Positions 54,077 through 62,552 of a stretch of DNA of 64,000 bases are shown here, one piece after another. The notes under the pieces are model-generated. The model was not told where the DNA came from. It did not search any database and was given only the letters and a program-made list of their open reading frames with translations. Both the position numbers and the translations under genes were made by a program. The stretch's first letter is position 1. Each line of letters starts with the position of its first letter. Source of the DNA: Streptomyces sp. Je 1-332 (GTDB lineage: Bacteria; Actinomycetota; Actinomycetes; Streptomycetales; Streptomycetaceae); assembly GCF_040730185.1 (NCBI RefSeq), contig NZ_CP160402.1, positions 7,874,001-7,938,000 of the forward strand, written 5' to 3'.

Positions 54077-54507
54077 CGACCGTCCGGCTGCACGTGCGGC
54101 AGCTGCCCGCGACCCCGGCCGCGCCGCCCGCGGACGCCAGCGCCTGGCTCGACGCCTTCTACGTGGCGGTCGCGTGCCGGCAGCAGGCCAGGGCCGACCG
54201 GCTGTGCGAGGTACCGCTCGAGGTGCTGCGGCAGGACGACTCGGTCGACGCGTACGTGCTGCACCGGATCGACACGCTGCAGACCTACTGGTCCGAGCGC
54301 CCCATGGACGACGTCGTGGCCAAGCTGCTCGACACCATGAAGGCGTCTCACCCGGAGTCCCTGACCCATGCGCCGAAGGACTTCTCGGACCTGATCGACT
54401 ACCAGCCCGTCGCCCTCTTCCACCGCCTGATCGCCCGCGATCACGACGCCTTCGCCAAGGCCCTGTCCGAAGCCGTCGCGCACCACGGCACCTACTGGGG
54501 CGAGTGA
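54037..54507 (+). pseudogene. N-terminally truncated Imm49-family immunity gene
   Basis: The frame opens at 54037 and encodes LTTVRLHVRQLPATPAAPPADASAWLDAFYVAVACRQQARADRLCEVP, DAYVLHRIDTLQTYWSERP and YQPVALFHRLIARDHDAFAKALSEAVAHHGTYWGE. This is the C-terminal half of an Imm49 immunity protein, which normally has about 200-250 residues. The first GTG (54094) is inside conserved sequence, so the N-terminal part is missing. No polymorphic toxin is next to it. A start at GTG 54094 could still give a 137-residue protein. Confidence 0.6.
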
Positions 54508-54517
54508 GGCTCCGAGG

Positions 54518-54546
54518 CTGAAACCCTCCTGAAACCACGCTGAATG
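54518..54546 (+). promoter_or_regulatory. SARP-box-like triple direct repeat upstream of the exporter genes
   Basis: Heptamers CTGAAAC (54518-54524), CTGAAAC (54529-54535) and CTGAATG (54540-54546) repeat with an exact 11-bp period. Streptomyces antibiotic regulatory proteins bind heptameric direct repeats with this spacing just upstream of a -10. A weak -10-like CAGCCT at 54557-54562 would start transcription at about the ATG of the ABC gene. An AfsR/SARP-type regulator is encoded just beyond the transporter. Confidence 0.65.
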
Positions 54547-54575
54547 CGTCATGCCGCAGCCTCTGCGGCATGACG
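54547..54575 (+). promoter_or_regulatory. perfect palindrome covering the exporter start codon
   Basis: CGTCATGCCGCAG (54547-54559) and CTGCGGCATGACG (54563-54575) are perfect 13-bp arms around CCT. The right arm holds the ATG at 54570. It directly follows the triple heptamer repeat. It can act as a repressor operator at DNA level or, if transcription starts upstream, as an mRNA hairpin that hides the start codon. Confidence 0.75.
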
Positions 54576-55544
54576 ACAACGACGACATCGTCCTCGCTCG
54601 CCATCGCCGCCACGGGGATGCGCAAGGCCTACGGTGACAAGACGGTCCTGGACGGCATCGATCTCACGGTGCCGGCCGGCACCGTGTTCGCGCTGCTCGG
54701 GCCGAACGGCGCGGGCAAGACCACCGCCGTGAAGATCCTCTCCACGCTCATCACCGCCGATGCCGGAGCCTTGAACGTCGGCGGCCACGACATCGCCACC
54801 TCACCGGACCGGGCGCGTTCCGCGATCGGGGTCACCGGTCAGTTCTCCGCCGTGGACGGTCTGATCACCGGCGAGGAGAACATGCTCCTCATGGCCGACC
54901 TGCATCACCTGCCCAGAGGGGAAGGCCGCCGCGTCGTCGCTGAACTCCTCGAACGGTTCGATCTCACCGAGGCCGCGAAGAAGCCTGCCGCCACCTACTC
55001 GGGCGGTATGAAGCGGCGTCTGGACATCGCCATGACGCTGGTCGGCAGCCCGCGGATCATCTTTCTCGACGAGCCCACCACCGGCCTCGACCCCCGCTCC
55101 CGGCACAACATGTGGGCCATCATCCGCGAACTCGTCTCCGGCGGGGTGACCGTCTTTCTCACCACCCAGTACCTGGAAGAGGCCGACGAACTCGCCGACC
55201 GTATCGCGGTGTTGAGCAACGGCAAGATCGCAGCCGAAGGCACCGCCGAGGAACTCAAGCGGCTCATCCCCGGCGGCCACGTACGCCTGCGCTTCACCGA
55301 CCCGGAGGCGTACCAGTCGGCCGCGGCCCTCCTGCGCGAGGCCGCTCGCGACGACCGGACGCTGTCCCTGCAGATCCCCAGCGACGGCACCCAGCGCGAA
55401 CTGCGCTCCATCCTCGACTGGCTCGACTCGGCCGGCATCGAGGCCGACGAACTGACCGTGCACACCCCCGACCTCGACGACGTCTTCTTCGCCCTCACCG
55501 GCAGCACCCAACTCCCCAACCAGCCCATGGAGTCCCTTCGATGA
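54570..55544 (+). CDS. DrrA-type ABC transporter ATP-binding subunit
   Basis: A 324-residue ABC ATPase of the daunorubicin-resistance (DrrA) class. Walker A is LLGPNGAGKTT (near residue 44), the signature is YSGGMKRRLDIAMTLVG, Walker B is IIFLDEPTTGLDPRSR, and the H-loop region is VFLTTQYLEEADELADRI. The C-terminal DrrA extension (about 85 residues, ending TPDLDDVFFALTG) is present. It pairs with the permease at 55541 (ATGA overlap) to export a drug-like compound. The start codon lies in a palindrome and there is no ribosome binding site, which suits a leaderless mRNA. Confidence 0.94.
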   Translation: MTTTTTSSSLAIAATGMRKAYGDKTVLDGIDLTVPAGTVFALLGPNGAGKTTAVKILSTLITADAGALNVGGHDIATSPDRARSAIGVTGQFSAVDGLITGEENMLLMADLHHLPRGEGRRVVAELLERFDLTEAAKKPAATYSGGMKRRLDIAMTLVGSPRIIFLDEPTTGLDPRSRHNMWAIIRELVSGGVTVFLTTQYLEEADELADRIAVLSNGKIAAEGTAEELKRLIPGGHVRLRFTDPEAYQSAAALLREAARDDRTLSLQIPSDGTQRELRSILDWLDSAGIEADELTVHTPDLDDVFFALTGSTQLPNQPMESLR

Positions 55545-56332
55545 GCTCTTTCTCCCTCGCCGTCCGCGACTCGTCCACGATGCTGCGCCGCAACCTCCTG
55601 CACGCGCGGCGCTACCCTTCCCTCACCCTGAACATCCTGCTGACGCCGATCGTCCTGCTGCTGCTCTTCGTCTACGTCTTCGGCGACGTGATGAGCGCGG
55701 GCATCGGCGGTGGCGGCGCCGACCGGTCGGACTACATCGCCTATCTCGTGCCGGGCATCCTGCTGATGACTCTCGGTGCCACCCCGGCCGGCACCGCTGT
55801 ATCCGTCTCCATGGACATGACCGAGGGCATCATCGCCCGCTTCCGTGCGATGGCGATCCACCGCGGCTCCGTGCTCATCGGGCACGTCGTCGGCAGCGTG
55901 CTGCAGGCCATCCTCAGCGTGCTGCTCGTGGGCGCGGTCGCCGTGGCTATCGGGTTCAGGTCCACCGACGCCACGGTCCTGGAGTGGCTCGCGGCGTTCG
56001 GGCTGCTCTCGCTCGTCGCGCTCGCCTTCACCTGGATCGCGGTCGGGATGGGGATGGCGAGCCCGAATGCCGAGGCGGCAAGCAACAACGCGCTGCCGCT
56101 GATGATCCTGCCGCTCATCTCGAGCGCCTTCGTGCCGGTCGACGCGATGCCGGGGTGGTTCCGGCCGTTCGCCGAGTACCAGCCGTTCACACCCGCCATC
56201 GAGACCCTGCGCGGGCTGCTGCTCGGCAGCGGGATCGGCAACAACGGGTGGGTCACGATCCTCTGGTGTCTCGGCCTGGCCACGCTCGGATACCGCTGGT
56301 CGACGTCCCTGTTCAACCGCGACCCGAAGTAG
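55541..56332 (+). CDS. DrrB-type ABC-2 transporter permease
   Basis: A 263-residue ABC-2 permease with six hydrophobic segments. YPSLTLNILLTPIVLLLLFVYVFGDVM is helix 1, YLVPGILLMTLGATPAGTAVSVSMDMTEGIIARFRAM is the conserved coupling region, and LPLISSAFVPVDAMPGWFRPFAEYQPFTPAIETLRGLLLG is the ABC-2 signature. It forms a drug exporter with the upstream ATPase. It ends 56 bp from the convergent AfsR/SARP-like gene. Confidence 0.93.
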   Translation: MSSFSLAVRDSSTMLRRNLLHARRYPSLTLNILLTPIVLLLLFVYVFGDVMSAGIGGGGADRSDYIAYLVPGILLMTLGATPAGTAVSVSMDMTEGIIARFRAMAIHRGSVLIGHVVGSVLQAILSVLLVGAVAVAIGFRSTDATVLEWLAAFGLLSLVALAFTWIAVGMGMASPNAEAASNNALPLMILPLISSAFVPVDAMPGWFRPFAEYQPFTPAIETLRGLLLGSGIGNNGWVTILWCLGLATLGYRWSTSLFNRDPK

Positions 56333-56388: not shown

Positions 56389-59300
56389 TCAGGCAAGCGC
56401 GCGGACCGCCTCCCACAGCTCGTCCCGATCCAGGGCCGCGTACCGCGACACCGCGTCGGCGTACGCCGCCCGGTCGGCGTGCTCGGCCGCCTGCCGCGCG
56501 CGGCCCGCCGACATCGTCGGCTGGAACTCGCGCGGCACACGCAGCCGTTCGGCCAGCGCGATCACGCGTACGGCGGAGGCGTCGCCGGACGCGAGCCCGG
56601 CCATGCCGAGCGCGTGCAGCACCGTCCCGAGCACAGGCAGCTCCACGGGGGAGCGGGGCGGGCCACCGAGCAGTGCCCGCAGCCGCGCCCGCAACCGGTC
56701 GACCTGGACCGCGACCAGATCGAGACGGCCGGCGTACGCGTGCGCCGTCACCGCCGCCGACTGGATCTGCAGCGCCCACGGGTCTAGCCCCGGGTCGCCG
56801 CCGTACAACGAGCCCGCCTCGGCCGTACGCTCCACCGCGCCGCGCCACAGGCCGAGCCCCGCCTCCGTCAGCCCACGGGTGAGGGCGATCTCCGCGCGTC
56901 CGCCGAGGTCGGGGCTGTAGAAGGCGTCCTCATCAGGGGTGCCTCCCTCGGTCTGCCGCAGCCAGTACTCGGCCTCGTCCGGGTCACCGCGCTGCAGGCA
57001 GGCGAGGACCAGAGCCGAGCGAATGCCGATGTGGTCGAGCTCGTCACCGATCCGCGGGAGCGCCTGCAGTGCGGCCCTGAGGTTCTCGTAGGCGGTCTCC
57101 CCGTGCCCCATCCGCAGGGCCAGTTCACTCAGCCGCGAGTGGCCCATGAGCCGCAGGGACGGCTGGTCGACCGCGGTGAGCGCGGTGAGCATCCGTCGAG
57201 CCGATGCGAGCGCGCCGTCGATGTCGTGCTCGTACTCCCATATGTACGTGGCCACGCACTCGGCGACGCCGGCGACCAGCGGCTGGTCGCTGTCGCAGAG
57301 TGCTCGGAGCACCGCGTAGTCGGGAGGGCGCATCTCGGGGAGTGCGCTGAGGACAGCCGCGGTCGCGCGCGGCAGCGTGTCCGGCGGAGCCGTGGGCAGC
57401 CGGCGGAGGGTGACGAGCTGGCGCACGCCATGCGGGCCGTAGTTCATGAAGAGGCCCGCAGCGCACAACACAGCGGCGGTGCGCGCGACTTCGACGTACG
57501 CGGGCCCGGGGTAGTAGTGCGAGAGCGGCGGGCCGGAGTCGGCCGCGAGAGCGGCGAGGCGGGGGTAGTTGGAGTCGGTGGACCACAGTGCGGCGAGCAC
57601 GGCGGTGAGGGCGGCGATCGTAGGACCGTCCGCACGGGCGAGGGCGTGCCGCAGGGCCCGTACGAGGTTGTCCTGCTCGGTTCTGATCCGCTCCCGGGCG
57701 GCGACGGGTGCGCCCCCACCCGGCCGGGAGCTGAGGGAGGGCTCCGGGCCGAAGAGCACATCGTGCTGCGCGAGCCCGAAGTCCCGTGCCCAGGCGAGGA
57801 ACCGGCCCACGGCCTCGCCCTCCTCGCCGGCCTCCGCACGGCGGACAGCGCTGAACTCCCGTACCACCTCCAGCATTCGGAAGCGCACGCCGGCCGGGGT
57901 GTCGAAGACGGTGAGCAGCGACTGCCCGGCCAACTGCTCGACGAGCAGCAGCGCGTCGTCCCCGAGCACATGCTCCGCCGCGTCCCCGGAGAAGCTCCCG
58001 GGGAAGACCGCCAGCGTACGCAGCGCGGCCCTGGCGTCCGGCGCGAGCAGATTCCAGCTCCACTCCACGACCGCGTGGAGCGTGCGGTGGCGCTCCGGCA
58101 CGTCCCGCGCCCCACCGCGCAGCAGCGCGAACCGGTCGCCGAGCCGGCGCGCGATCTCCGGCACCGACATCACCCGCACCCGCGCCGCCGCCAGCTCCAC
58201 GGCGAGCGGCAGCCCGTCGAGGTGACGGCAGAGGTCGGCAACGGCGTGCGGTGGCAGCTCCACGCCGGACCTGGCTGCCCGTGCCCGCTGCGTGAACAGC
58301 TCGACGGAAGTGGCAGGACCGAGTGCCGGCAACGCGTACACGGCCTCCGACGTGAGGTCCAGCGGGGCCCGGCTCGTGGCGAGCACCCGCAGCTCCTTCG
58401 AGGACGCGACCAAGTCCTGTACGAGGTCGGCGGCGCCCCGGACGACCTGCTCGCAGTTGTCGAGCACCAGCAGGGCGGGCCCGGCGCCGAGCACGCCGAG
58501 GATGCCGGACACCGGGTCGGCCGCTGCGTGCCCGCTCACGACGCCGTGCCGCCCTTCGCCCGCACCGAGCGCCGTGGCCACCTCCATGGCCACGTCCGCG
58601 TCCGCGGTGACGGCGGCGAGCGGCACGAAACACACCACCTTCTGCTCGGCGCGGCGGCTGACGGCGTGCGCGAGCCGGGTCTTGCCGAGGCCGCCGGGAC
58701 CGACGACGGTCACGGCCCGGGAGTCGCCCAACAGCCGTTCCACGGCCGCGATGTCCTCCTCCCGGCCGAGGAGCGGATTGGGCTCGTGCGGCACACCGTG
58801 CCGGACCACCGGCTCGCCGCGCAGCAACTCCTGCTGCACGGCCCTGAGTCCGGCGCCGGGATCCGTGCCGAGCGCGTCACGCAGCTCACGGCGGTAGGCC
58901 TCGTAGCGCGCGAGCGCGGCGGAGGGACCCGCCGTCGCGGCCTCGCCGCGCAGCAGCTCCGCGAGCACCTCCTCGTCGCGCGGATGCTCGGCGGCGGCCA
59001 CGGATAGCGGTCCTGCCGCCTCCGCATGCCGCGCGAGGCGGGCGAGCGCGAGCGCCCGCGCACGTACGAGAGCGTCGCGGACGGGAGCACGCTCGGCGCG
59101 CAACGCGGCGACGGGGTCGGCGACGCCGGCCAGTTGGACAGGAGGACCGCCGGCCGCTCCGCCCGGGACGCCCTCCCACAGGGCGAGACCCGCCTCGGCC
59201 GCGGCCAGCGCTGCCGCGTGGTCCCCGGCCCTTGCCCGCTCCGCGCAGGCAGCGGCATGCAGCAGCACGGCGGAACTGTCGACCTGCTCCTCGGCGAGGT

Positions 59301-59556
59301 CGAGCCGGTACCCCGTCGGTGTGCTCACGATGACGTCGGCACCCAGCTGCGCCCGCGCCCTGGACACGAGCACCTGCAACGCCTTCCCCGGCCGCTGCGG
59401 CAACGCGTCCGGCCACAGCCCCGCCACCAACCGCTCGGTGCCGCAGCCTGCGCGCACCTCGCCCGCGAGCAGCGCGAGGAGGCCGCGGAGCCGGGGCGCG
59501 GTGACCTCCTGCCCACGAAGGGCGACACGCGGCAACAGGGTCAGTTCGGTGGCCAC
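56389..59556 (-). CDS. AfsR/SARP-like regulator with BTAD, NB-ARC and helical repeats
   Basis: A 1055-residue regulator. Residues 1-90 are an OmpR-like winged helix (LRGLLALLAGEVRAG...VLVSRARAQLG...TGYRLDL). Residues about 92-245 are a bacterial transcriptional activation domain. The NB-ARC ATPase follows, with Walker A VVGPGGLGKTR (285-295), Walker B LLVLDNCEQ (362-370) and GLPLAVELAAAR. The C-terminal half is TPR-like helical repeats. Such proteins activate antibiotic and export genes by binding heptamer repeats. One such repeat lies before the convergent exporter pair. The start is GTG 59556. Confidence 0.92.
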   Translation of the reverse strand: MATELTLLPRVALRGQEVTAPRLRGLLALLAGEVRAGCGTERLVAGLWPDALPQRPGKALQVLVSRARAQLGADVIVSTPTGYRLDLAEEQVDSSAVLLHAAACAERARAGDHAAALAAAEAGLALWEGVPGGAAGGPPVQLAGVADPVAALRAERAPVRDALVRARALALARLARHAEAAGPLSVAAAEHPRDEEVLAELLRGEAATAGPSAALARYEAYRRELRDALGTDPGAGLRAVQQELLRGEPVVRHGVPHEPNPLLGREEDIAAVERLLGDSRAVTVVGPGGLGKTRLAHAVSRRAEQKVVCFVPLAAVTADADVAMEVATALGAGEGRHGVVSGHAAADPVSGILGVLGAGPALLVLDNCEQVVRGAADLVQDLVASSKELRVLATSRAPLDLTSEAVYALPALGPATSVELFTQRARAARSGVELPPHAVADLCRHLDGLPLAVELAAARVRVMSVPEIARRLGDRFALLRGGARDVPERHRTLHAVVEWSWNLLAPDARAALRTLAVFPGSFSGDAAEHVLGDDALLLVEQLAGQSLLTVFDTPAGVRFRMLEVVREFSAVRRAEAGEEGEAVGRFLAWARDFGLAQHDVLFGPEPSLSSRPGGGAPVAARERIRTEQDNLVRALRHALARADGPTIAALTAVLAALWSTDSNYPRLAALAADSGPPLSHYYPGPAYVEVARTAAVLCAAGLFMNYGPHGVRQLVTLRRLPTAPPDTLPRATAAVLSALPEMRPPDYAVLRALCDSDQPLVAGVAECVATYIWEYEHDIDGALASARRMLTALTAVDQPSLRLMGHSRLSELALRMGHGETAYENLRAALQALPRIGDELDHIGIRSALVLACLQRGDPDEAEYWLRQTEGGTPDEDAFYSPDLGGRAEIALTRGLTEAGLGLWRGAVERTAEAGSLYGGDPGLDPWALQIQSAAVTAHAYAGRLDLVAVQVDRLRARLRALLGGPPRSPVELPVLGTVLHALGMAGLASGDASAVRVIALAERLRVPREFQPTMSAGRARQAAEHADRAAYADAVSRYAALDRDELWEAVRALA

Positions 59557-59826
59557 CCGAGCAGATTAACCAAGGCGGCGGGTCAACGAGCGGGGGCGGC
59601 TCCCTCATTGTGAGTGATGTGGGCCCGCCGCGCGTGCCGGTCGGGCGTTGACTTCACGGGTGGATATTTGCTGACGGCACCGATCCCTGTGGTGCTTGGA
59701 GCTTTCTGTGCCTGTCACGCCTGACGCTTGTCTGTCCTCGAGTGGCAGCCTTCTCGGCTTCCCGCCGGGCGCAGCCGCCGGGCACCTCTCCCTCGCCCTG
59801 ACCGCCGAGCCGCACTCCACGTCCTC

Positions 59827-61422
59827 ATGAGGCCGCACGCCGACACAACTGCCGCCGCATGTCGCCCTGTTGCCGGTCGCCGGTGGGCCGCGTCCGGTGC
59901 GCTGTGCCTGGGTCTGTTCATCCTCGGCATGGACCTCACGATCCTCAACGTCGCCATCCCCGACCTGCACGCGGACCTGCGGCCTTCCATGGCGCAGATC
60001 CAGTGGATCGTCGATGGGTACGCCCTGATCCTGGGCGGCACCGTCCTGGCCTGTGGAGCGCTCACCGACCGCATGGGACGCCGGCGCACCTTCCTCGCCG
60101 GTCTGGTGCTGTGCGCGGGAACTTCGGTCCTCGGGGCCGTCGCGCAGACGCCGCTGCAGACGATCGCGGCCCGCGGCGGCATGGGTGCCGCCGGGGCCCT
60201 GATGATGCCGGCGACCCTGTCGATCATCCACTGGATGTATCCGGAGCCGATGTTGCGGCGCCGCGCCATCGCGGTATGGACGGCCGTCGCCGCGGCCGGT
60301 GGGCTCACGGGACCCGTCATCGGAGGATGGCTCGTCGAGCACTTCTCCTGGCGAGCCGGATTCTGGGTCAACGTGCCGCTCGCGGCGACGGCATTCCTCC
60401 TCACCTGCCTGCTCGTCCCCGAATCACGGGCGAAACGCACCGAGCCTCTCGACGGCGTCGGCACCGCGATGTCCGCGGCCGGACTCCTCGTCCTGGTCTG
60501 GGCGATCATCGAGAGCCCGGTCCGCGGCTGGACGAGCGGCCCCGTACTGCTCGCCTACGCGTCCGGGGCGCTCCTGCTCGCCCTCTTCGCCGTGCGCCAG
60601 GCCCGCACCGCGTTCCCCATGCTCCCGCCCGCCCTCATGCGCGACCCTCGCGTCAGCATGGCCGCCGTGGCCCTCGCGCTGATGTCCTTCGCCCTGTTCG
60701 GCGCGCTCTTCGTCATCACCCTGCATCTGCAAGGGGTGCTGGGATATACGCCCTGGCAGGCCGGGGTCAGGACACTTCCGTTGCCCTTGGCGCTCGCCGT
60801 GGGAGCCATCGCCGCCCTGCCGTTGGGCGGCCGGTGGGGGCAGCGACTGCCGATCGTCACCGGGCTGCTGCTCATCACGGCTGCCTTCGCGATCCTGGCC
60901 ACGACCACCGCAGCCGACGGTTACGCGCACCTGATGCTCTTCCAGGCCGTGGCAGGCCTGGGAGCGGGGGCGACGGCCGCGGCCGGCACCGAATCCGTCA
61001 TGAGCGCCGTCCCCGGCGACCGCGCGGGCCTCGGCTCAGCGGTCAACGACGCCACCCGTCAGGTCGGTTCATCCCTCGGGGTCGCCGTACAGGGCTCTCT
61101 CCTCAGCTCGGTCTACCACCACCGCATGGCCGACAGCCCGCCAGGAGCGGGTGACAACATCCTCGCCGTACGTGGCACCGCGTCCCACCTGCCAAAGCCC
61201 CAGGCCCTCCAACTCATCGCCACCGCGAAGGAATCCTTCATCTCCGGCCTCACCGCGACAGCCGCCCTGGCGGGCGTCGTCACCTTCGCCACCGCCCTGG
61301 CGGCAGCCCGTTGGCTCCCGGGTTCACGCCGGCCGGCAGCATTGGACCCCGACGTTCAGTCACCCTTGACGAACACGAGCCCGTCGACCCCGCTCAGGCG
61401 AGCCGGGTCGAGCGGGGCGTAG
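59827..61422 (+). CDS. DHA2-family (EmrB/QacA) drug:H+ antiporter
   Basis: A 531-residue major-facilitator exporter with 14 predicted helices. Motif A is GALTDRMGRRRTFLAG, motif D1 is LDLTILNVAIPDL-like (MDLTILNVAIPDL), and motif C-like glycines are in WTAVAAAGGLTGPVIGGWLVEHFSWRAGFWVNVP. The N-terminal cytoplasmic extension has His/Cys residues. ATG 59827 is used, and an in-frame GTG at 59728 would add 33 residues. The last 67 bp overlap the convergent Ere-like gene. It is divergent from the AfsR/SARP-like regulator. Confidence 0.93.
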   Translation: MRPHADTTAAACRPVAGRRWAASGALCLGLFILGMDLTILNVAIPDLHADLRPSMAQIQWIVDGYALILGGTVLACGALTDRMGRRRTFLAGLVLCAGTSVLGAVAQTPLQTIAARGGMGAAGALMMPATLSIIHWMYPEPMLRRRAIAVWTAVAAAGGLTGPVIGGWLVEHFSWRAGFWVNVPLAATAFLLTCLLVPESRAKRTEPLDGVGTAMSAAGLLVLVWAIIESPVRGWTSGPVLLAYASGALLLALFAVRQARTAFPMLPPALMRDPRVSMAAVALALMSFALFGALFVITLHLQGVLGYTPWQAGVRTLPLPLALAVGAIAALPLGGRWGQRLPIVTGLLLITAAFAILATTTAADGYAHLMLFQAVAGLGAGATAAAGTESVMSAVPGDRAGLGSAVNDATRQVGSSLGVAVQGSLLSSVYHHRMADSPPGAGDNILAVRGTASHLPKPQALQLIATAKESFISGLTATAALAGVVTFATALAAARWLPGSRRPAALDPDVQSPLTNTSPSTPLRRAGSSGA

Positions 61423-62552
61423 CCGAACCAAGGGGATTCGCGGGGCGGCGGTGGAGTGTCACCGAAGGCGGCAGCCAGCTGCGCGGCATCGATGACGTAG
61501 CGGTCCTCCGGGAGCGCGTACAAAAGCCCTTCGAGGGTGTCCGGATGCGGGGCGTCCACGCCCTGGCGGCGGATGGTGCCGAGGGCTGTGGCCAGGAAGG
61601 CGTACTCCTCGCCGATGCGGGCGCTGACGAGCGCACCGGCACTCCACCACTCCAGCAGCGGCTGGTCCCACATGCGTATCGAGCTCTTGTCCCGTTGCAG
61701 ATGGCTGTTGTGGGCGTGCACGAAGGTGGGGCCGCGCTCGGCGACGGCGAGGAGGTTGTGGGCCATCATCTGGTCCCGCAGGCCCAGGAGGCGGGTCATC
61801 CGGCCCGGTGAGGTGTCGGCCATCCAGTGGTGGTAGCGCAGCAGGCCCGTCGCGGTGCGGCCGTAGAGGCGCGCTCGGTCCAAGGCGTCGCGCGAGGTCG
61901 TCGCGAGCAGATGCGGGATCTGCGTGTCGAGCAGGGCCACGAGGTCGTCGGCGATCAGCCTTAGTTGCTCCGCCTCGGCCGACTGTCCCACGGACCGGGA
62001 CGGGTCCATCATCGCGGCGGGATCGGTCCATGGGGCGTCGGCGCCGAGCAGGCGGTCGAGTGCGTCCGTGGTGACGGGGAGCAGGTCCGCGTCCAGCTGG
62101 GCCGCGAGGTAGCTGTGGAGCGCGGTGAGGGCCTGGCGGGGGCTCGCGGCGTGGGTGATCTCCAGGGGGCCGTCGAAGCCGGCGAAGCGGACCTGTTCGT
62201 GTGCGGGCCTGCCGTCGTTGAACGCCTTTGCCCAGCGCACGAGTTCGCGGTTGGCCGCATGGGTGTCCCAGCCGTGGCTGAAGCCGTGCTTCACGACGTC
62301 GTCGAGAGTGCCGGTGCCCGAAGTGACGTAGTCGTCCACTGCCAGACCCCTCATGCAGTCGCTCTCGATCGCGATCGTCCGGTAGCCCTCCCGCTCGGTG
62401 AGCTGCTGGAAGAGCTCGTTGCGCAGGTCGAGCAGTGCGTCCTCGCCGTGGGTGGGCTCGCCCACGGCGAGCAGTCGCGGCCGGGCCGGGAGGAGGTTCA
62501 TGACGGTGGCCGCGTCGACGGAGCGCACGGTGTCCTTGGTGTCAGTAGCCAT
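61356..62552 (-). CDS. erythromycin-esterase-family protein
   Basis: A 398-residue Ere-type hydrolase. The catalytic His is in LAVGEPTHGEDAL near residue 35, Glu in TIAIESDCMRGLAVDDYV near residue 61, and His in FVHAHNSHLQRDKSSIR near residue 275. Macrolide hydrolysis is known for some members, but many environmental ones have other substrates. It is divergent from a TioE/MerR regulator with dyad-rich spacer DNA and overlaps the end of the DHA2 exporter, which suggests a resistance context. Confidence 0.88.
   Translation of the reverse strand: MATDTKDTVRSVDAATVMNLLPARPRLLAVGEPTHGEDALLDLRNELFQQLTEREGYRTIAIESDCMRGLAVDDYVTSGTGTLDDVVKHGFSHGWDTHAANRELVRWAKAFNDGRPAHEQVRFAGFDGPLEITHAASPRQALTALHSYLAAQLDADLLPVTTDALDRLLGADAPWTDPAAMMDPSRSVGQSAEAEQLRLIADDLVALLDTQIPHLLATTSRDALDRARLYGRTATGLLRYHHWMADTSPGRMTRLLGLRDQMMAHNLLAVAERGPTFVHAHNSHLQRDKSSIRMWDQPLLEWWSAGALVSARIGEEYAFLATALGTIRRQGVDAPHPDTLEGLLYALPEDRYVIDAAQLAAAFGDTPPPPRESPWFGYAPLDPARLSGVDGLVFVKGD

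Follow-up and report, generated by a model that had tools for sequence, protein, structure and literature searches.

We examined a 64,000-nucleotide (nt) window of the Streptomyces sp. Je 1-332 genome (contig NZ_CP160402.1, positions 7,874,001 to 7,938,000; all coordinates below are window positions), in which a short triple repeat stands directly ahead of the drug-exporter genes drrAB and a gene for a large Streptomyces antibiotic regulatory protein (SARP) lies immediately beyond them. On the forward strand, drrA (54570..55544, ATG at 54570) encodes a DrrA-type ABC exporter ATPase that spans the whole of TIGR01188 (profile positions 1-302 of 302) at 312.1 bits, against a cut-off of 312.45. 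It is followed on the same strand by drrB (55541..56332), encoding a DrrB-like ABC-2 permease, with a start that was read from the translation and overlaps the end of drrA, and with a profile match obtained on the longer open reading frame 55112-56332. The regulator gene (56389..59556, reverse strand) converges on drrAB.

The regulator is 1055 residues long and has the architecture of a large SARP: an OmpR-type winged helix and BTAD (residues 1-250), a central NOD/NB-ARC part with the Walker A motif GPGGLGKT, and a TPR-like C-terminal part. The NB-ARC match is borderline (4e-05, 23.4 bits, cut-off 23.5), and the Walker A residues are mostly invariant among 25 regulator sequences. By sequence and predicted fold (mean predicted local distance difference test score 80.7, predicted template modelling score 0.56), the N-terminal part resembles AfsR, which has been solved in a transcription initiation complex, and EmbR; comparison of the predicted structure relates the middle part to STAND ATPases with Apaf-1/NRC folds and the C-terminal part to TPR sensors such as MalT domain III, these alignments covering the model unevenly and the list of matched families not being exhaustive. 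Identity with AfsR itself was rejected (NCBIfam NF053617, 56 bits against a cut-off of 1430); judged by its sequence, the protein shares the SARP-NOD-TPR layout with AfsR, yet is not AfsR.

Direct reading of the sequence gives three forward-strand heptamers, CTGAAAC (R1, 54518..54524), CTGAAAC (R2, 54529..54535, in the -35 region) and CTGAATG (R3, 54540..54546), at a period of exactly 11 base pairs (bp), as a first-pass annotation of this DNA had reported; heptameric direct repeats with 4-nt spacers are the form of a SARP operator. CTGAA three times at this period has a single mismatch-free match in the window, and allowing up to three mismatches gives 3 matches, of which one overlaps the triple repeat, versus 0.33 expected, a count reached in 0 of 100 shuffles. 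Across the single-contig 8.27-Mb genome the triple repeat is the only perfect match; one or two mismatches add 5 matches, compared with 4 for a reversed control, and no second copy of the repeat together with the -10 was found in the whole genome at up to three mismatches.

Downstream of R3 lies a -10-like hexamer, CAGCCT (54557..54562, forward strand; consensus CANNCT). Scanning 54300-54800 for sigma-70 and terminator consensus sequences gave no match, and no ribosome-binding site was seen before the drrA ATG. Because of this absence, and because the -10 places the start at the ATG, the natural reading of the sequence is that the drrA message is leaderless. The predicted transcription start, on the forward strand, is C54569 or A54570 (a 1-nt leader or none), in keeping also with the geometry described for AfsR (PMC10936776); with a start assumed at 54569, R2 begins at -40, R3 begins at -29 and CAGCCT occupies -12 to -7. 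Leaderless mRNAs are put at 22.2% in S. avermitilis (PMC8780764).

The first-pass annotation had proposed comparing orthologous loci, and we did so in a set chosen by regulator homology, with the operator playing no part in selection: the best 80 of 166 confirmed loci (245 stretches had matched a pattern), 8 of which were left out for lack of an assessable drrA start. The triple repeat stands ahead of drrA in 71 of the remaining 72, with 0, 1, 2, 3, 4, 5 or 6 mismatches over 21 scored positions in 17, 24, 18, 7, 2, 2 and 1 loci, respectively; elsewhere in the loci, 14 of 3154 windows of the same size have 6 or fewer. Relatives of the regulator in the named collection are mostly from Streptomyces, and the set also includes loci from Actinomadura, Actinopolymorpha, Nocardia, Phytohabitans and Amycolatopsis, in which the operator has 1-6 mismatches. 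The first repeat lies 52 bp from the ATG in 63 of the 71 operator-bearing loci, and a column profile was built from these 63 (ATG at +52, no more than 6 mismatches). All three heptamers appear in it, R1 as a conserved TGAA(A)(C)C at -51 to -45 before the ATG, and the A at the second and T at the sixth position of CANNCT are invariant. Conservation thus supports the earlier suggestion of a SARP-type operator, made up of the heptamers and placed immediately ahead of a -10. As the loci are related, the block might instead have been kept by shared descent alone and have no function; we regard this as extremely implausible, since information content is 0.04-0.87 bits in the columns ahead of the repeats and up to 2.0 bits within them, and the operator is retained in other gene orders, ahead of other genes and in other families.

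Presence of the site also follows presence of the regulator. In 392 Streptomyces-genus genomes, a pattern search allowing up to two mismatches found 72 sites in 65 genomes, whereas the reversed control pattern matched once. Searching with the N-terminal 261 residues of the regulator (E 1e-40) found it in 87. Both occurred in 59 genomes, the site only in 6, the regulator only in 28 and neither in 299. A further 36 regulator loci were examined: all but one of the 28 regulator-only genomes contributed 28 of these, and other genomes the remaining 8. A weaker site with 3-5 mismatches is present in 24 of the former and a site in 6 of the latter; the six loci without one are regulator fragments (L239, L256) or contig-end cases (L259, L263, L264, L266). 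Repeats ahead of drrA were seen in the remaining regulator-only genome (G020) and in G032.

This co-occurrence supports the tie, first drawn from adjacency, between the heptamers and the regulator at 56389-59556. The operator architecture and spacing are the same as those of other SARPs (PMC5930380, PMC10972967), and the heptamers might be used by one of these, for example the global regulator AfsR, and not by the neighbour. That seems improbable to us: the site tracks the neighbouring regulator, whereas AfsR homologues are reported in all Streptomyces tested, and the AfsR repeat given in the same review, CGTT(T/C)ATCGNN, is different (PMC10972967).

The association extends to the genus of Amycolatopsis sacchari (locus L228), where the site occurs at up to three mismatches in 9 of 19 genomes (10 sites versus 2 control matches) and 8 of the 10 sites stand ahead of drrA. 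When the surroundings of eight such loci were examined, all eight held the regulator (53-58% identical) and had the A and T of the -10 in the identical register. Because leader and palindrome (see below) vary among these loci, the repeats and the -10 are the fixed part of the promoter.

Natural rearrangements separate the operator from its usual setting. Fifty-five of the 72 Streptomyces sites stand ahead of drrA, 51 of them with the regulator in the examined stretch; the other 17, divided by reading, comprise 6 ahead of a GtrA-like gene, 4 ahead of a cytochrome P450 (P450)-type gene and 7 without a target. The GtrA-like assignment (L114) scores 20.1 bits with Pfam GtrA, below the cut-off of 26.1. 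Where drrA lies in tandem behind the regulator and not convergent to it (L154, L204, L225, L227), the operator remains with drrA. A P450-like gene follows drrA across a gap of drrB size in L097 and L132, and in L095, L105 and L121 it is the only gene left behind the operator, beside the regulator (Pfam P450 confirmed for L095). G271 has the P450-type site and the regulator on different contigs, the regulator being accompanied by a drrA site of its own; the GtrA-like gene and its site are located apart from the regulator in G011, G068, G335 and G429 and immediately ahead of drrA in G184 and G319. Our reading of these arrangements is that the operator would serve a small regulon with swappable outputs, near to or far from the regulator. 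At a further P450-only locus (L232:6080-7364), a drrA-like start after the operator runs into the P450 gene, suggesting deletion of drrAB from the operon, and at L252:6284 a degenerate operator lies directly behind the regulator, with neither drrA nor a P450 gene found there. Genome G000 encodes three DrrA paralogues, 85-89% identical, at 228837, 3671301 and 4615763 (L037-L039), without the triple repeat.

Directly after the repeats, as previously noted, a perfect palindrome spans the drrA ATG (54547..54575, no strand assigned), with two 13-nt arms, 100% complementary, and a 3-nt loop. This palindrome is unique in the window; as a class, 13-bp-arm palindromes occur there in 6 centre/loop combinations, against 0 in each of 10 Markov-model windows. 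The first-pass annotation had placed a second layer of control on it, by a repressor or an mRNA hairpin, a proposal that comparison of 161 distinct promoters does not sustain. In this set, sites with 3-5 mismatches were retained only with the -10 in register, making the -10 count (155 of 161) partly a product of construction, and the 6 out-of-register sites included in the 161 all look like chance matches. Three of the 161 (Je 1-332, L180 and L253) have 12-13-bp arms, so that of the two elements compared across loci the heptamers proved conserved and the palindrome nearly private to the strain.

Binding of the palindrome by a second regulator, such as a repressor blocking the -10 and the start, would account for the perfect arms in Je 1-332, for the 8.1 of 13 pairs at the palindrome axis, compared with 2.3-5.1 at shifted axes, in the 63-locus alignment, for the dyad of at least 7 bp (TGCCGCA/TGCGGCA) in 32 of the 161 promoters and for a slight excess of pairing when the axis is allowed to move. 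We nevertheless consider it unlikely. Not even the first dyad pair is present in 38 of the 161, and at the original axis there is no compensatory change, pairing being 8.02 as observed and 8.08 with right halves shuffled among loci. P450-only promoters lack the right half and GtrA promoters have an altered left half. In promoters where either half, or both, has been lost, the repeats and the -10 are still in place, and inspection by eye of the leadered Amycolatopsis-type promoters revealed no comparable palindrome or dyad. A hairpin masking the start codon is less probable still: although 54547-54575 folds as RNA at -23.6 kcal/mol, the promoter geometry puts the start at the ATG, past most of the hairpin, no ribosome-binding site to regulate was seen, and the structure is not conserved. 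If the message is leaderless, most of the palindrome is untranscribed. Since it spans the -10 and the discriminator, each conserved in its own right, we judge the palindrome probably incidental, a by-product of substitutions in this lineage.

We interpret 54518-54570 as a SARP-dependent leaderless promoter of drrAB that the convergent regulator is predicted to bind and activate, with a probability of about 0.84. The conservation, spacing, regulator co-occurrence and domain architecture are as observed above; binding, activation, the start site and the signal are our inference. The SARP-NOD-TPR protein would bind the three head-to-tail heptamers with a single protomer on each 11-bp repeat. R2 and R3 lie over the -35 region, where the two direct repeats of AfsR sit, and the protein would thereby bring sigma region 4 to a promoter without a good -35 and with only a weak -10 (CANNCT); transcription would begin at the ATG or one base before it. 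The regulator may be kept inactive by its STAND ATPase and TPR parts and be released by ATP together with a signal, for which a drug or toxic metabolite is a plausible candidate. This is by analogy with AfsR, in which ATP lifts the inhibition exerted by the NOD and TPR parts (PMC10936776). In other genomes the same operator would drive P450 and GtrA-like genes, giving a small protection regulon.

Several observations weigh against this interpretation. The gap between R3 and the -10 is 10 nt, compared with the 8 bp cited for SARPs, a value that depends on how the heptamers are framed. Not every such promoter is leaderless: a leader is present in 6 of the 8 Amycolatopsis-type loci, with a GGAGG-like sequence in it, and in the P450-only loci L095, L105 and L121, where it contains a ribosome-binding-like sequence. 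The 7 targetless, chance-looking sites among the 72 exceed the single control match. In 6 of the 65 genomes with a site, no regulator was found at E 1e-40 (5 with chance-looking sites, and G021 with a degenerate drrA), and in G239, one of the 59 genomes with both, the only site within two mismatches looks like chance. L172, the one exception among the 72 assessable loci, has the regulator and drrA and lacks the operator, its drrA (L172:10943-11899) being under another promoter type with a ribosome-binding site. Some genomes contribute to both the regulator-selected and the site-selected loci, and the two sets are not independent. In A. sulphurea, moreover, drrAB overexpression alone gave no chelocardin resistance and other targets were suspected, according to PMC7559539; for this reason, drrAB may not be the main output. 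Finally, the verdict on the palindrome is not absolute, the flexible-axis dyad test giving 5.14 versus 4.91 in shuffles, with 3 of 300 reaching the observed value; for the 37 promoters without TGCGGC, 36 of 500 shuffles do so, and relatedness can explain the slight excess. As a separate observation, the arrangement in L172 resembles an exchange of promoter or gene with a paralogue.

Comparable elements occur in known systems. DnrI of S. peucetius (drrAB/drrC) is a SARP and, unlike the Je 1-332 regulator, a pathway regulator of daunorubicin biosynthesis. It is reported, in the title of a 2017 paper, to bind the drrAB genes. At the afsS promoter of S. coelicolor, AfsR is likewise a SARP-NOD-TPR protein acting through 11-bp direct repeats over the -35 of a weak promoter, at an equal distance to the start if that of Je 1-332 is 54569 (PMC10936776); the Je 1-332 site differs in having three repeats, another repeat sequence and an exporter or P450 target. 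PimR at pimM in S. natalensis also uses three heptamers with 4-nt spacers, but is a SARP-LAL protein with CGGCAAG repeats, an operator that does not cover the -35 box and a biosynthesis target (PMC5930380), and a review lists three-heptamer sites for other SARPs (PMC10972967).

In A. sulphurea, one AfsR/SARP gene beside drrAB carried point mutations in 9 of 9 sequenced chelocardin-resistant mutants (PMC7559539). The likeness to Je 1-332 lies in this adjacency and in genus-level relatives that carry regulator, operator and drrA; the account of the A. sulphurea gene in that paper describes no operator, and the two regulators are likened by gene neighbourhood, not by sequence. Because Amycolatopsis-genus loci carry regulator, operator and drrA together, the A. 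sulphurea protein is probably of the same family. The first-pass annotation had taken the combination to be undescribed, and this holds for the operator, of which a search of open-licence papers gave no description among the papers listed, whereas PMC7559539 does give a comparable regulator-drrAB neighbourhood together with the mutations.

Beyond that annotation, the analysis adds the putative leaderless start, the wider candidate regulon and the resistance mutations published for a comparable regulator of Amycolatopsis. It is chiefly as switches of antibiotic biosynthesis that SARPs are known; the large SARP examined here is linked, over a wide evolutionary distance, with a drug exporter and detoxification-type genes. 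As a tentative extension, to which we give somewhat less than even odds, this SARP-STAND clade could be a conserved actinobacterial drug-response switch apart from biosynthesis, in which NOD-TPR senses a toxin, one operator serves swappable DrrAB, P450 or GtrA-like protection genes, and sensor mutations lock the switch on. The precise operator provides a searchable signature of the regulon, the P450 and GtrA-like genes are candidates for the extra resistance targets inferred in PMC7559539, and the system offers a simple setting in which to ask which signal the NOD-TPR half of a large SARP responds to, a question left open in the AfsR paper (PMC10936776).

Ahead of the regulator gene itself, no triple repeat that would suggest autoregulation was found by eye in 59557-60000; a TAATCT hexamer lies 6 nt ahead of its GTG start (59554-59568, by eye), and the regulator mRNA may also be leaderless. 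An Imm49-like immunity gene (54094-54507; profile positions 46-175 of 217, with a possibly truncated 5' end) lies directly upstream of the operator. On the other side, a major facilitator superfamily transporter gene (59827-61422) diverges from the regulator and is followed by an erythromycin-esterase-like gene (61356-62552), so that resistance-type genes cluster around the regulator locus.
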